A stretch of 64,000 nt of DNA from Pseudomonas prosekii. Lineage in GTDB: Bacteria > Pseudomonadota > Gammaproteobacteria > Pseudomonadales > Pseudomonadaceae. Of the stretch, positions 18,763 through 24,234 are shown in pieces. The notes below the pieces were generated by a model. The model saw nothing but the letters and a program-made list of their open reading frames with translations, was not told where the DNA came from and did no database searches. Location: contig NZ_LT629762.1 in NCBI RefSeq assembly GCF_900105155.1, forward strand, positions 3,325,001 to 3,389,000, read 5' to 3'. Numbering within the stretch: position 1 is the first letter of the stretch; each line of letters opens with the position of its first letter. The translations under genes and the position numbers were made by a program.

Positions 18763-19827
18763 ATGGCACTTATCAGCATGCGCCAGATGTTGGACCACGC
18801 AGCCGAATTCGGCTACGGCGTTCCAGCCTTCAACGTCAACAACCTTGAGCAGATGCGCGCCATCATGGAAGCCGCTGACAAGACTGACTCCCCGGTGATC
18901 GTCCAGGCCTCGGCCGGTGCGCGCAAATACGCAGGCGCGCCGTTCCTGCGTCACCTGATCCTGGCGGCAATCGAAGAATTCCCGCACATCCCGGTGTGCA
19001 TGCACCAGGACCACGGCACCAGCCCTGACGTCTGCCAGCGCTCGATCCAACTGGGCTTCAGCTCGGTGATGATGGACGGCTCCCTTGGCGAAGACGGCAA
19101 GACTCCGACCGACTACGACTACAACATCCGCGTTACCCAACAAACCGTGGCCATGGCTCACGCCTGCGGCGTTTCGGTAGAAGGCGAGCTGGGCTGCCTG
19201 GGTTCGCTGGAAACCGGCATGGCCGGTGAAGAAGACGGCATCGGCGCAGAAGGCGTTCTGGACCACAGCCAAATGCTCACCGACCCGGAAGAAGCCGCTG
19301 ACTTCGTCAAACGCACCCAGGTCGACGCCCTGGCCATCGCCATCGGCACCAGCCACGGCGCCTACAAATTCACCAAGCCACCTACCGGCGACGTGTTGGC
19401 CATCGACCGCATCAAAGAAATCCACAAACGCATCCCCAACACCCACCTGGTGATGCACGGCTCGTCTTCGGTCCCACAAGACTGGCTGGCGATCATCAAC
19501 CAGTACGGCGGCGACATCAAAGAAACCTACGGCGTACCGGTTGAAGAAATCGTCGAAGGCATCAAGCACGGCGTACGCAAGGTCAACATCGACACCGACC
19601 TGCGCCTGGCGTCCACCGGTGCGATGCGTCGCCTGATGGCCACCAACCCGAGCGAATTCGACCCACGTAAATTCTTCGGCGCCACCGTGACCGCCATGCG
19701 TGATGTGTGTATCGCTCGTTACGAAGCGTTTGGTACTGCCGGTAATGCTTCGAAGATCAAGCCGATCTCGTTGGAAGCGATGTATCAGCGTTATCTGAAG
19801 GGTGAGTTGAACGCTAAGGTTAACTAA
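18763..19827 (+). CDS. fba: fructose-bisphosphate aldolase, class II
   Basis: A 354-residue zinc-dependent aldolase interconverting fructose 1,6-bisphosphate with dihydroxyacetone phosphate and glyceraldehyde 3-phosphate. Seen: MHQDHGTS with metal-ligand histidine, [30 protein letters not shown] and VMHGSSS, all class II marks. Its last 106 codons (from about 19511) and the following terminator occur a second time at 21541-21911, differing only at synonymous positions, on the far side of a hipBA module. The present 3' end may thus be imported DNA that restored the gene. Confidence 0.96.
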
Positions 19828-19880
19828 GCCTTAGTGTTAAACAGCTTTGATAAGAAACCCGCCGTGAGGCGGGTTTTTTT
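19511..19880 (+). repeat. fba 3' end plus terminator, copy 1 of a direct duplication
   Basis: About 370 bp matching 21541-21911. The coding part has about 20 differences in about 320 bp, all at third codon positions with no amino-acid change. The short stretch after the stop codon has diverged more, but the terminator hairpin is kept. Confidence 0.9.
19855..19880 (+). terminator. rho-independent terminator of fba
   Basis: AAACCCGCC, a short loop, GGCGGG and a run of seven T, about 28 bp past the fba stop. Confidence 0.93.
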
Positions 19881-19929
19881 GTTCGCGCAATCTCATGATT
19901 CATCATGACCGACGTAAGGCGCTTGAAAA

Positions 19930-19985
19930 GTCACCTATAGTAAACATAATCAAGTCCAAGGCTATAAAAGTTCTATATAGGTGAC
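19930..19985 (+). promoter_or_regulatory. hipBA promoter region with paired operator half-sites
   Basis: GTCACCTATA at 19930-19939 and its exact inverse TATAGGTGAC at 19976-19985 flank an AT-rich stretch of about 36 bp immediately before hipB. Such spaced inverted sites fit autorepression by a HipB dimer (with or without HipA). Inferred from position and symmetry. Confidence 0.65.
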
Positions 19986-19989
19986 ATTT

Positions 19990-20241
19990 ATGCTGCTCTA
20001 CAACCCCTCCGTCTTCGCTGATCGTCTCCGCCAGTTGCGGCGAGCCAAAGGCTATACCCAGCTGCAGTTGGCGCACAGGGCGAAATGCAGCCGGAAAACC
20101 GTCATTGATCTGGAGGCGGGGGAAAACGTATCGCTGTATACGGTATTCAGGGTTCTTTCTGCGTTGGGCATGGCGCTGGAAATTGTCGATAACCGCATCG
20201 ATCTCAAATCCTTGGCCGAGCTGGTAGAACACGATGAGTAG
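19990..20241 (+). CDS. hipB: HipB-like antitoxin / HTH (Xre) regulator
   Basis: An 83-residue DNA-binding protein with a helix-turn-helix at residues about 10-60 (FADRLRQLRRAKGYTQLQLA ... KTVIDLEAGENVSLYTVFRVL), typical of the Xre/HipB group. The ATG at 19990 is preferred; an in-frame GTG at 19981 lies inside the operator repeat. It overlaps hipA by 8 bp, so the pair is translationally coupled, as in type II toxin-antitoxin modules. It should neutralise HipA and repress the operon. Confidence 0.85.
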   Translation: MLLYNPSVFADRLRQLRRAKGYTQLQLAHRAKCSRKTVIDLEAGENVSLYTVFRVLSALGMALEIVDNRIDLKSLAELVEHDE

Positions 20242-21499
20242 GGTTAAACAGCTCAACATCATCACGCCGCAAGGTTTTTCCGGTGAGCTGTCCAAGGGGT
20301 CGCAGTTTTCGTTCGGGTACGAATCAGCGGATGCACCTAAAGAAGTATCGCTGGTCATGCCCTATGACCCGACACCCTCTGTCAGTAATGTTTTGCACCC
20401 AATATTTGATATGAACGTCCCTGAAGGATTTCTGGCGGATCAGATCAAGCGTCGGATGGCCAAGCACATGCAGGTGGACGAAATGCGCCTGCTGTCGGTG
20501 ATCGGTGGAAACCAGATTGGACGTCTCACCTATCAGAATCCGCTTGAGGCTTCCGTTGCTGTTCGCGCTCAAGTCGGGCTGCAAGAAATCCTGTCTGCCG
20601 ATACCTCTCAAGGTGTCTTCGACTTCCTTGTTGATACTTACTTCGAGTCCGGTATTTCCGGTGTACAACCCAAGGTGTTGGTACCTGACCTGGACAAGCT
20701 GACCGGCAGCCGGAAAACCATGCTCAGTTCCGACCTGATTGTGAAGTCAGGCGCTGAAGAATATGCACACTTGGCCCAGAACGAGTTCCTGTGTCTGGAG
20801 GCAGCTCGCCTTGCCGGATTGGAAACACCGCCCTTCTGGCTTTCTGAAAGGGGTGATCTGTTTGTGATGGAGCGGTTTGACCTGACGGAGTCCGGTCGAC
20901 TCGGATTTGAAGACATGGCCGTTCTTCTGGGGCTCAACAAAGATCCTCATGACAACTATAAGTATTCCCAGAGTTACGAAACGCTCGCAGCGGTGATTGC
21001 ACAGGTTTGCCGGCATGCAAATCCGCTGCGTGAGCTTGAACGGTTTTTTTCGTCGGTCTGTCTTTCAGTCATGGTCCGCAATGGTGATGCTCACCTGAAA
21101 AACTTTGGGGTGATTTACACGCATCCTGGTGCGCGTGAAACGGTGCAACTGGCTCCTGTATTCGATGTCACGACTACGACTGTTTACGAAAATTACAATC
21201 CCAAATCCGGCCGCTCATTGGTGGACCGTACCTTGGCTATCAAGATGAACAAGGTCAAAACTTACCCCGATCGGCAGCAGTTGATCGAGTTTGGTCGCCA
21301 GCACTGCGCGGTGGACAAGCCGTCGTTGATTATTGAGCGAATTGCCGAAGCGATGACTGAGGCGCTGGTTGTTAATCAGGGGCGTGTTGAGGATGAGTTG
21401 TTGTCGGGAATGCAGGGGGAATGGGATGCAGGAAGAATGGTGGCGCTGCATGACTCTGTTAAATCGGGTCTTAAGCGAAAACCTGTTATGAAAAAATAA
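20234..21499 (+). CDS. hipA: HipA-like serine/threonine kinase toxin
   Basis: A 421-residue protein with the HipA N-terminal domain (SVIGGNQIGRLTY, residues 88-100) and kinase core (ISGVQPKVLV at 141-150, the catalytic NGDAHLKNF at 283-291, metal-binding D311 in PVFDVTT). All key residues are present, so it looks active. E. coli HipA phosphorylates glutamyl-tRNA synthetase and induces persistence; the target here is unknown. Overlaps hipB by 8 bp. The AT-richer codon use and the duplicated fba tail behind it point to horizontal arrival. Confidence 0.9.
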   Translation: MSRVKQLNIITPQGFSGELSKGSQFSFGYESADAPKEVSLVMPYDPTPSVSNVLHPIFDMNVPEGFLADQIKRRMAKHMQVDEMRLLSVIGGNQIGRLTYQNPLEASVAVRAQVGLQEILSADTSQGVFDFLVDTYFESGISGVQPKVLVPDLDKLTGSRKTMLSSDLIVKSGAEEYAHLAQNEFLCLEAARLAGLETPPFWLSERGDLFVMERFDLTESGRLGFEDMAVLLGLNKDPHDNYKYSQSYETLAAVIAQVCRHANPLRELERFFSSVCLSVMVRNGDAHLKNFGVIYTHPGARETVQLAPVFDVTTTTVYENYNPKSGRSLVDRTLAIKMNKVKTYPDRQQLIEFGRQHCAVDKPSLIIERIAEAMTEALVVNQGRVEDELLSGMQGEWDAGRMVALHDSVKSGLKRKPVMKK

Positions 21500-21540
21500 G
21501 TGACCTTGTGTGAATCTTCATCACGGCGAGATGGGTGGCG

Positions 21541-21859
21541 CGGCGACATCAAAGAAACCTACGGCGTGCCGGTTGAAGAAATCGTCGAAGGCATCAAGCA
21601 CGGCGTGCGCAAGGTCAACATCGACACCGACCTGCGCCTGGCGTCCACCGGTGCGATGCGTCGCCTGATGGCTACCAACCCGAGCGAGTTCGATCCGCGT
21701 AAGTTCTTTGGCGCGACTGTGACGGCGATGCGTGATGTGTGTATCGCTCGTTATGAAGCGTTTGGTACGGCGGGCAATGCGTCGAAGATCAAGCCGATCT
21801 CGTTGGAGGCGATGTATCAGCGTTATCTGAAAGGTGAGTTGAACGCTAAGGTTAATTAA
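21541..21859 (+). pseudogene. fba 3' fragment (last 106 codons)
   Basis: Encodes the same 106 C-terminal residues as the intact aldolase, then TAA. It lacks the N-terminal two thirds with the metal ligands, has no start signal of its own and cannot form an active aldolase. The chance GTG-initiated frame from 21500 adds only a few residues. It is best read as the old 3' end of the resident gene left behind after insertion, or the copy brought by the element. Confidence 0.9.
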
Positions 21860-21886
21860 GACTGGGCGTTAAGCTGCGTTGATAAG

Positions 21887-21911
21887 AAACCCGCCGAGAG
21901 GCGGGTTTTTT
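21887..21911 (+). terminator. second copy of the fba terminator
   Basis: AAACCCGCC, loop, GGCGGG and T run, like the one at 19855. It now probably ends hipBA transcription. Confidence 0.88.
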
Positions 21912-22053: not shown

Positions 22054-22181
22054 ATGAGCACCAAATAACCGAAGCCTGAAGACACAAAACCTCAAAAACC
22101 GAAACCCCTCACGAGTCCGCTTGGAGGGATGGTAAACAGTAAGGTCATGCCAAGGTCCAGGTCGATCCGACAAAGCTCTAG
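22054..22181 (+). pseudogene. decayed mini-gene for a Pro/Lys-rich peptide
   Basis: An excellent GAAGGAG site at 22038-22044 precedes ATG at 22054, but the fifth codon is TAA. Beyond it the same frame continues PKPEDTKPQKPKPLTSP and GGMVNSKVM. A shift near 22156 would give KVQVDPTKL and a TAG at 22179-22181, just before a terminator. Strong initiation and termination signals around a broken frame suggest a recently inactivated gene of about 42 codons. I do not recognise the peptide. The alternative is a noncoding RNA or a sequencing error. Confidence 0.4.
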
Positions 22182-22193
22182 TCACTACCGTCG

Positions 22194-22221
22194 AAAAACC
22201 CGCAGCGATGCGGGTTTTTTT
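22194..22221. terminator. bidirectional terminator hairpin
   Basis: AAAACCCGCA, four-base loop, TGCGGGTTTT with further T. It sits between the mini-gene on the plus strand and the stop of the minus-strand gene at 22237 and can serve both. Confidence 0.88.
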
Positions 22222-22236
22222 GCGACTAACTTTTGA

Positions 22237-22530
22237 TTACTTCACTTCAGGCGTATCAAACCCACGCTGTTCAATCACTCGAAACACGTCATTCACGTCC
22301 TGGAGCAGGATGCGGGCGATGTTGGTGACGGTGTTGATATCGTGTTCGGCGTAGTCGGGCAGGCTGGTGCAGGCCATCAGGTTGAGGTATTTGAGGACGG
22401 CGTTGAGGCGTTCGCTGAGGCAGTTGTGCAATTCGCGGAGCGGGGCGTTGGTGTCGATGACGAGGACGGGGTAGTCGGTGGCGAGTTGGGACATGGGGGT
22501 GAAGCGGCGCGGCGGATTGCTCATGGTCAT
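22237..22530 (-). CDS. small hypothetical protein conserved in Pseudomonas
   Basis: A 97-residue, mostly helical acidic protein with a conserved-looking core (LRELHNCLSERLNAVLKYLN ... ITRI-like C-terminal helix). A good AAGGAAG site precedes ATG at 22530; a second in-frame ATG follows two codons later. It resembles the small helical proteins found in many copies in fluorescent pseudomonads, but I cannot name the family with certainty. No signal peptide. Function unknown. Confidence 0.6.
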   Translation of the reverse strand: MTMSNPPRRFTPMSQLATDYPVLVIDTNAPLRELHNCLSERLNAVLKYLNLMACTSLPDYAEHDINTVTNIARILLQDVNDVFRVIEQRGFDTPEVK

Positions 22531-22835
22531 TAGTAAATCTTCCTTGTGCTTAATAAAGAAGAGCTACTGCCGTTCGCTGCGAATCGAATGGGTGGTAGCT
22601 GCGTGCGGGTTCGCAGACCGAGGCACAAGGAACCCGGCAGACCCGAAGGTCTCCCACACGCAGCCACCATAAAACGAACTGCGGGCGTTAAAACGACCAT
22701 CGTTTGTTATGGAGCTTGGTTGCCATTGCGCTGTAGGGCTGCGAAACCCTATCGCCGACTGCTGTCAGCGACGGGGCGAACTATAAGCGGCGACTTTGAT
22801 GGCTGCAACTGCACCGTAGGACAGCGCATAACCCT

Positions 22836-23233
22836 TGTGGCGAGGGGGCTTGCCCCCGTCCGGCGGCGCAGCCGTCGTAAAACCGGGCACTAAGGTGCGG
22901 CTGTAGGAAACAGGTGGCAGGGTTTGGGGCCGCTTCGCAGCCCGACGGGGGCAAGCCCCCTCGCCACAAAAGGTAATTTCCTACGAGATTTTCGGAGGGT
23001 AATGGAATTGATGGGGGCCGCTGCGCAGCCCGACGGGGGCAAGCCCCCTCGCCACAAAAGGTCATTTCCTACGAGATTTTTGGAGGGGAATGGAATTGAT
23101 TGGGGCCGCTTCGCAGCCCGACGGGGGCAAGCCCCCTCGCCACAAAAGGTAATTTCCTACGAGATTTTCGGAGGGTAATGGAATTGATGGGGGCCGCTTC
23201 GCAGCCCAACGGGGGCAAGCCCCCTCGCCACAG
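22836..23233. repeat. array of palindromic repeats with 88-bp tandem period
   Basis: Begins with a complete TGTGGCGAGGGGGCTTGCCCCCG element. It continues with a tandem 88-bp unit comprising GGTAATTTCCTACGAGATTTT spacer plus the GCCCGACGGGGGCAAGCCCCCTCGCCACAA arm. The spacer landmark CTACGAGATTTT falls at 22981, 23069 and 23157. Lies between a hypothetical gene and the alginate lyase gene. Confidence 0.9.
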
Positions 23234-23243
23234 GGCAGATGGC

Positions 23244-23912
23244 TTACTTGTCGTGATCAATGTCCAGTTTGCTGAAGGTCACTTTGCCGCCCTCGCTGGT
23301 GTAACCGGTGTTGTCCTGCACGTACACGCCAGCCTTGAAATACAGCGGCTTCACGCGCCAAGTGGCGCTGATGTTCGAATCCCACTGATAACCCGCCGCG
23401 CTGATACCCAGTTGCCCGCCGGGGCTCAGATGAATCAGGTAGGAAAACTCCTGATCGAGCTTCACCCCGGTGGCGATGATAATCACCCGGCCTTCGCCGT
23501 CATCCGGGTGCATGCGCACTTTGGCGACGATGTTGCCAGTCTCGGTTTTGGTCTTGTATTGATACTCGACCTTGACCATCGGCTTCTGACTTTCATACGC
23601 GTGGATCTGCCCGATCACAATCTTGCCGGAGCTGGGCACCTGATTGACCGCGAGCGTTGCGCGCAAGGTGTTGTCCGCGTCCGGATAAAGCCAATTACGC
23701 AACGTACCGTTGCTGTAGGTTTCGCGAAGTTCGGTGCGCGGGTACTTGGCGTTTTCGGTTTTGGAGCCCGTGACCGGTGACCAGAAAAACAGCGTGCCGG
23801 TATTGGAATGGAAGTATTGGTCCTTGAAGCCGTTCACCAGTTTGGACGTTTCGACGGTGTACGGCGGATTGCCGACAGGAACACTGAGGTTCCATGTTGC
23901 GAGATCGATCAT
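23244..23912 (-). CDS. alginate lyase, polysaccharide lyase family 7
   Basis: A 222-residue enzyme of the PL7 jelly-roll type that cuts alginate by beta-elimination. The three family motifs are present: RTELRE at residues 59-64, QIH at 102-104 and YFKAGVYVQ near 193-201, giving the Arg, Gln, His and Tyr of the active site. No signal peptide is visible, as in the short PA1167-type lyase of P. aeruginosa, so the cellular site is uncertain. ATG at 23912 has GTGGAAG upstream; a GTG at 23942 is less likely. Stands alone. Confidence 0.9.
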   Translation of the reverse strand: MIDLATWNLSVPVGNPPYTVETSKLVNGFKDQYFHSNTGTLFFWSPVTGSKTENAKYPRTELRETYSNGTLRNWLYPDADNTLRATLAVNQVPSSGKIVIGQIHAYESQKPMVKVEYQYKTKTETGNIVAKVRMHPDDGEGRVIIIATGVKLDQEFSYLIHLSPGGQLGISAAGYQWDSNISATWRVKPLYFKAGVYVQDNTGYTSEGGKVTFSKLDIDHDK

Positions 23913-24234
23913 AGACAAAGCTTCCACAAATTCAGGCTGCACGCCCGTGCCAGAAGCTCTGGCACGGGCCTTGGAGGGCGCTCTTTATAAGCGTAGCGGG
24001 GGTTTTTGTTAATGCCCGCCCGGCAGATGATTGGCGTCAACATCCTGTCGAAATGCCATCTTTCCCGGTTTCAGGGGGCTGTAGCGCCGACCGTTAGTCG
24101 GCTTATAGAAGCTTTGAATCAACGATGGCGAGATGACACCTACTGCTTTTGCCGTTCCGGGTCTAGAGTGAAGGCTCAGTACGTGTCCGGTTTTCACAAG
24201 AAATCGGCCTGAATGTCCAGACAAGAGAAGCAGC
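23913..24234. other. intergenic gap, no gene seen
   Basis: Divergent space between the alginate lyase and the c-di-GMP gene. It contains the inverted repeat CCGTGCCAGAAGCTCTGGCACGG at about 23945-23967, which could be a terminator-like or regulator site. No convincing ORF or REP element. Confidence 0.5.

Follow-up and report, generated by a model that had tools for sequence, protein, structure and literature searches.

Displaced fba 3ʹ ends around hipBA and a probable gene hotspot without a visible integrase in Pseudomonas

Why does the 3ʹ end of an intact aldolase gene occur twice in the same short stretch of a Pseudomonas chromosome? The 64,000 nt of Pseudomonas prosekii DNA analyzed here (the window; contig NZ_LT629762.1 of assembly GCF_900105155.1, positions 3,325,001 to 3,389,000) carry fba, an intact gene for class II fructose-bisphosphate aldolase (18763..19827, + strand; PF01116, E 2e-93). 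Repeat comparison shows that fba nt 746-1117, comprising the last 320 coding nt and the terminator, is repeated on the same strand at 21540-21911 with 92.5% identity. Copy 1 of the tail (19508-19827, fba nt 746-1065) is the end of fba itself, and is followed by a terminator recognized from repeat families and sequence as a hairpin and T run (19852..19881). Copy 2, the displaced tail (21540..21859, fba nt 746-1065), retains 106 in-frame codons with unchanged amino acids, and is followed by a copy of the fba terminator (21884..21911). The copies start 2032 bp apart, with a complete hipBA pair between them. When a 421-nt fba tail was used as a query against its own genome, a single contig of 6.09 Mb, there were two matches, the second with E 2e-155, which is far from chance. 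The duplication is thus confirmed as an earlier note on this DNA had described it, down to the synonymous third-position differences between the copies. We consider it probable that the locus is a hotspot without a visible integrase, at which the fba 3ʹ end recombines with incoming DNA and the old tail is displaced, and that hipBA in the window is a tail-flanked cassette of this kind.

Where did the two tails diverge? They align without gaps and differ at 20 of 320 bases, with 0, 0 and 20 differences at first, second and third codon positions; over the 106 shared codons, 20 changes are synonymous and none is nonsynonymous. The probability that all 20 differences would be silent is p = 3e-10 for neutral drift of a spare copy alone, and p = 3e-4 on the assumption that the selected copy took half of the changes. 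Intact fba tails from different species, at 12-28 differences, have 87% of these at the third position. Since the differences between the window tails are silent only, and those between intact tails lie mostly at third positions, the spare tail most likely diverged within a working gene and not at its present location. Moreover, the copies are 6.2% apart from each other, and each is nearer to the intact fba of another species (3.4% and 4.1%). Plain tandem duplication is disfavored for the window by the silent-only differences, and duplication in place with later drift appears to be a poor fit because all 20 differences are silent and each copy is nearer to another species' fba. Copy 2 is weakly indicated as the native tail of the window: correlation with distance at pgk is higher for copy 2 (rho 0.45) than for copy 1 (0.33), and copy 2 tracks pgk distance better in 8 of the 12 tails compared. 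The mean distance to the five nearest species is equal for both window copies, and we abandoned the use of tail distances to pick the native copy, the tails being too short and too recombined.

Is this arrangement found elsewhere? The 421-nt query matched 394 of 398 Pseudomonas genomes; two candidate places were scored per genome, so fba copies can be missed. Apart from that of the window, 94 genomes had at least two matches, and these were followed (40 fetched and 54 placed, some of those fetched). We fetched 20 single-match genomes for comparison, and added 30 named HipA loci. There were 109 oriented loci (designated L with a number), of which 100 were kept for counting, and the criterion for a tail excluded starts at fba nt 1050 or above. 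A displaced fba coding tail is found in 31 of the 100 loci, with 34 tails in total; in these 31, older 3ʹ pieces have been kept downstream of the intact gene. Because 28 of the 31 loci belong to the 398 genomes, a displaced coding tail lies between fba and the alginate lyase gene in at least 28 of the 398, the window included. None was seen in the 20 single-match genomes. The tails start anywhere from fba nt 454 to nt 1040, and an excess of differences at third positions is strong in several (first/second/third: 0/2/13 in L056, 2/1/13 in L063, 5/2/18 in L068 and 2/1/10 in L071). As a control, we counted downstream coding-tail copies within 9 kb in the fetched loci, and found them for fba in 30/96, for the alginate lyase gene in 4/88, and for pgk (0/100), mliC (0/99), GGDEF (0/64) and hipA (0/26) in none; genomes with two fba matches are overrepresented in this set, whereas the other genes were unselected, and the criterion differs slightly from that of the 34-tail count.

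The earlier note had suggested searching genomes for other cargo between fba tails, and many cargoes were found. The interval holds plus-strand hipBA, a distant minus-strand hipA (38-39% identical), an MFS/carbamoyltransferase/nitroreductase cluster, alanine racemase, DUF6124, transposases, and many genes without an assigned function. Scanning 20 cargo proteins (19 of 85 clusters of open reading frames, ORFs) with Pfam revealed no integrase, and there was no integrase or relic of one among the window proteins scanned.

If tails are displaced by incoming DNA, what lies behind them? We compared the 220 nt 3ʹ of each displaced-tail terminator with the DNA directly 3ʹ of intact fba elsewhere, and scored colinear matches. 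There was a match for 15 of 34 displaced tails, as compared with 27 of 420 random interval segments (Fisher p 1e-8; 55 of 420 segments match at any offset). Hence, within the set, displaced pieces can be followed by former fba flanks. The match behind the tail is 100% over 219 nt for L049 and L038, whose pgk genes are 10% apart, 93% for L047 and L074, 88-90% for L040 and L037 as compared with L081, and 96% over 80 nt for L059 and its close relative L043 (pgk 2.5% apart), which has a short, tail-free interval. The order of cargo and tails is permuted, being fba-c2-tail-hipA(-) in L040 and fba-hipA(-)-tail-c2 in L042; in L060, an MFS-type cluster is followed by a tail and then by hipB remnants. 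In all three loci with two displaced tails (L042, L049 and L138), the nearer tail is more like the intact gene. In L138 (genome G338), a single interval contains three fba 3ʹ ends, and the two units there have cargo without a shared self-match and an identical joint between a lyase fragment and fba nt 454.

Two tracts of near-identical cargo are shared between species that are 6-10% apart at pgk. For L040 and L047 (pgk 5.9% apart), there are 2-5 mismatches per 50 nt at fba nt 800-1000, 0-1 per 50 nt from about nt 1000 through the terminator and the cargo to about nt 1800, and 3-5 per 50 nt in the displaced tail, and the sequences are unrelated from about nt 1950. For L049 and L038, a stretch of about 1.7 kb that begins where a displaced tail ends has 0-2 mismatches per 100 nt, as compared with 10-25 per 100 nt in both flanks. 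Both tracts look like homologous exchanges with one border in or just behind an fba 3ʹ end. In these two cases, then, variable cargo lies between fixed core genes and a recombination tract ends in a core gene.

We propose that the interval between fba and the alginate lyase gene is a Pseudomonas gene hotspot without a visible integrase. DNA from a donor strain would pair with the fba 3ʹ end and recombine there, leaving the recipient with its own fba 5ʹ part, the synonymous 3ʹ end of the donor, and the donor cargo; the former fba 3ʹ end of the recipient would end up downstream as the displaced tail. The joint on the right could arise by homology-facilitated illegitimate recombination, or through homology with a tail copy or with the alginate lyase gene. 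A cassette between two fba tails could then move between strains by double crossover and be stacked before older cassettes, and hipBA in the window would be such a cassette. Because post-tail DNA matches intact-fba flanks elsewhere in 15 of 34 cases, and two near-identical tracts border an fba 3ʹ end, it is probably homologous recombination that adds and exchanges cargo behind fba and displaces older tails. For the window, this account rests on analogy and on the silent-only divergence: we infer that the copy arrived by the route seen in other species, with hipBA itself carried in the last event and RecA-type recombination as the agent. The process appears to be real and recurrent, and homologous recombination, which the earlier note had raised upon finding no integrase, fits with what is seen in related species. 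Its idea of import with a foreign fba tail also fits, in that recent duplication in place is a poor explanation and cargo with an fba 3ʹ end is recurrent in relatives, but the arrival of hipBA itself is unproved. Relatives with both tails and no hipBA, which the same note would have taken as evidence against import, do occur in other species, mostly with other cargo between the tails.

Several observations weigh against this account. Among the matches listed in 57 and 398 genomes, none crosses the right joint of the window, and neither a donor nor an empty sister was found for the window itself. Past its terminator, the DNA 3ʹ of window copy 2 matches no intact-fba flank, such that the succession of displaced piece and former flank is not seen for the window tail. 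Among the 15 matching tails, those of L041, L044, L059 and L068 are weak (68-80%) and not all are independent; another, that of L050, looks like a tandem duplication without cargo, and is probably just that. The L040/L047 tract does not have a sharp left border, since fba nt 700-800 is also free of mismatches. For most of the 12 tails compared, the five closest species lie nearer to copy 1 than to copy 2. Lastly, several older tails show no excess of third-position differences (3/5/6 in L034, 1/6/5 in L036, 4/6/8 in L044, and also L037). Across the tails, the pattern is as would be expected if they decay after displacement, which is no proof that they do.

What makes the right-hand joints? In the window, the joint lies in a spacer between hipA and the displaced tail (21500..21539, + strand). 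Right joints 3ʹ of hipA differ between loci, at fba nt 746 in the window, 741 in L063, 721 in L093, 803 in L096, 887 in L092, 931 in L108 and 1040 in L053, with only the terminator in several others. In L092, the tail is fused at the hipA stop codon and is 99.6% identical to copy 1 of that locus. The joints are thus varied, with short microhomology in L092, but on either side the two best tracts appear to be homologous. The variation bears on a suggestion of the earlier note, namely capture by a site-specific system acting in trans, with the tail as an attachment site, in the manner of islands at tRNA genes and of elements at streptococcal fda. Such a system would rebuild the 3ʹ end of the gene and leave a direct repeat bounding the cargo, both of which are seen here. 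However, tail starts ranging from nt 454 to nt 1040 leave no fixed core, and no integrase is present among the proteins scanned; for these reasons we reject site-specific integration, which seems to us very improbable. A different enzyme may make some of the joints: seven of them, spread over six loci (L039, L040, L051, L071, L138 twice, and L139), have a GGGACAGATTTATTT-type motif (≤2 mismatches) no more than 15 nt to the left of the tail, a further point that tells against recombination as the whole explanation. The motif, which we take to be linked to RAYT genes, has 65 matches, which are spread over 25 of the 100 loci and by their coordinates all fall within the fba-lyase interval; shuffled sequence of 40 loci gave none. 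In two loci, L039 and L072, this interval also contains Y1_Tnp genes. A Y1/RAYT-type (HUH) transposase could accordingly make the right joint at GGGACAGATTTATTT-type ends, by one-ended insertion or adjacent deletion, and leave the rest to recombination. Since the window joint and most others lack the motif, and its placement at joints is given as raw counts, we regard this as quite unlikely as an explanation for the locus, if somewhat less so than a site-specific system.

How long has hipBA been at fba? The pair consists of a hipB-like gene for an 83-aa helix-turn-helix antitoxin (19990..20241, + strand; PF01381, E 7e-9) and hipA, encoding a 421-aa kinase toxin (20234..21499, + strand; PF07804, E 5e-44, and PF13657, E 3e-13), which overlaps hipB by 8 nt. 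HipA has SGVQPK (142), NGDAHLKN (283) and APVFD (307), which we take to be HipA kinase motifs, and is related to HipA proteins with solved structures; all named relatives of the window hipA are from Pseudomonas. By its sequence, the pair has the composition of a HipBA type II toxin-antitoxin system, with the antitoxin gene overlapping the kinase gene. Among 29 full-length carriers at fba, hipA distance correlates with pgk distance with rho 0.77, and the five nearest hipA carriers to the window include its four nearest by pgk, the hipA of the nearest carrier being 19% distant. As hipA tracks pgk, hipBA gives the impression of a long-standing resident at fba, passed on mostly vertically, that has been kept, lost and perhaps regained. 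This fits long residence better than fresh import, which is again a point against our account, and it weakens the case for recent horizontal arrival of hipBA. An operator-like inverted repeat lies 5ʹ of hipB (GTCACCTATA / TATAGGTGAC, 19930-19939 / 19976-19985, + strand). A related site is found 3ʹ of fba in 20 of the 30 carriers of plus-strand hipBA and in 3 of 70 non-carriers, and its pattern was absent from 1.13 million nt of control sequence, both strands counted; in the three non-carriers (L076, L077 and L085, all near the window by pgk) it is an operator-like scar 92-98 nt 3ʹ of fba.

These data could also be explained if fba-hipBA-tail were the ancestral arrangement in this group of Pseudomonas. 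The tail would erode in most lineages, the terminator would be kept for hipBA, and one of the window tails would have been overwritten recently by another strain's allele, with hipBA itself not recently moved. The hipA/pgk correlation and the scars in loci close to the window by pgk are as this predicts, as is the fba tail or terminator that lies ≤100 nt 3ʹ of hipA in 13 of the 26 carriers listed. Frequent exchange of the fba 3ʹ end, which would refresh one tail, is suggested by the fact that intact fba tails follow pgk distance weakly in hipBA carriers at fba (rho 0.43). However, a tail as old as the 19% hipA divergence should have lost its coding sequence, whereas the window tail is intact, and duplication with later replacement is required where one import suffices. 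We therefore consider a static resident unlikely, although clearly less so than either of the enzyme-based explanations. A related hipBA is also present at a second site, directly 3ʹ of what we presume from its sequence to be a hemE-like gene, in L097-L100, L103, L115 and L116; no displaced tail of that gene was found in the 7 loci checked, and L099 has one other short repeat upstream. Searches with the finding gave partial matches in 2 of 72,556 plasmid records, and weak matches only in a defence library.

How does the fba locus compare with known systems? ICESt1/CIME elements are said to lie at the 3ʹ end of fda in streptococci, where the end of this aldolase gene is rebuilt and cargo lies behind it; they reportedly rely on a site-specific integrase and on a core that is short and fixed. 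At fba, no integrase gene was found among the scanned proteins and the tail starts (nt 454-1040) reveal no fixed core; the import idea fits but the integrase-like comparison does not. In type VI secretion system (T6SS) effector modules of Vibrio cholerae, sequential displacement is described, in which new modules are added beside a constant part and older downstream pieces are kept as an array. The authors propose homologous recombination, perhaps along with homology-facilitated illegitimate recombination, and compare the arrays with those of integrons (Kirchberger 2017, PMC5361080). The fba locus resembles this in that its constant part, too, gains new cargo while older pieces survive downstream. 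In contrast, the anchor in V. cholerae is an effector gene and the pieces are immunity genes (PMC5361080), whereas here the anchor is a metabolic gene, its protein is unchanged, the changes are silent and the cargo is unrelated, with no effector-immunity cargo at a toxin gene. We suggest that the fba case resembles T6SS sequential displacement, but at a housekeeping gene. In the same genus, the main breakpoint for swapping of T6SS effectors in P. aeruginosa coincides with the 3ʹ end of the conserved vgrG gene, with looser ones downstream, and homology-facilitated illegitimate recombination is inferred (PMC11751169); the effectors are replaced there, not stacked, and the passages of that paper considered here describe no displaced housekeeping-gene tails. 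Hotspots without mobile elements have cargo turnover between core genes, frequent homologous recombination and often no integrase (Oliveira 2017, PMC5635113). They are attributed to double crossover in both flanks, whereas displaced tails at fba record insertions and their landing points. Among the open-license matches listed in a literature search, no title or abstract opening mentions displaced fba tails or an fba hotspot.

Beyond copy 2, the interval contains further pieces, one of which may belong to an older layer. By eye, 22054..22190 (+) is a candidate remnant of a small ORF (ATGAGCACCAA...) found in L094; in the window it has a stop codon after 4 codons, and tblastn listed no match there. 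A third, fba-type terminator follows (22194..22220, +), in an arrangement like that of L059 and L050, and is possibly the oldest layer. Next is a 97-aa ORF without a Pfam match or an assigned function (22237..22530, - strand), a relative of which lies directly 3ʹ of the fba terminator in L126 and L128. The far border of the variable interval is the alginate lyase gene (23244..23942, - strand; PF08787, E 1e-62). The only Rfam match is outside the fba-hipBA-tail feature, just past the 97-aa ORF, and is to a C4 antisense RNA (RF01695; 22588-22674, - strand; 86 bits against a gathering threshold of 45). Palindromes like repetitive extragenic palindromic (REP) sequences, of the GGGGGCAAGCCCCC type, are clustered at 22835-23235, with three copies of a 142-nt unit at a spacing of 88 nt.

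What is the significance of displaced fba tails? It is possible, and we put it forward tentatively, at somewhat less than even confidence, that fba tails act as the homologous attachment sites of an integrase-free cassette system, in which any gene lying between two fba 3ʹ ends would become a cassette for host recombination to insert, stack, reorder and remove across species while fba stays intact. Displaced tails are physical records of single insertions, and landing point, order and relative age can be read from their sequence; the route is therefore testable. The finding also suggests a general search, for synonymous 3ʹ-end copies behind conserved genes.

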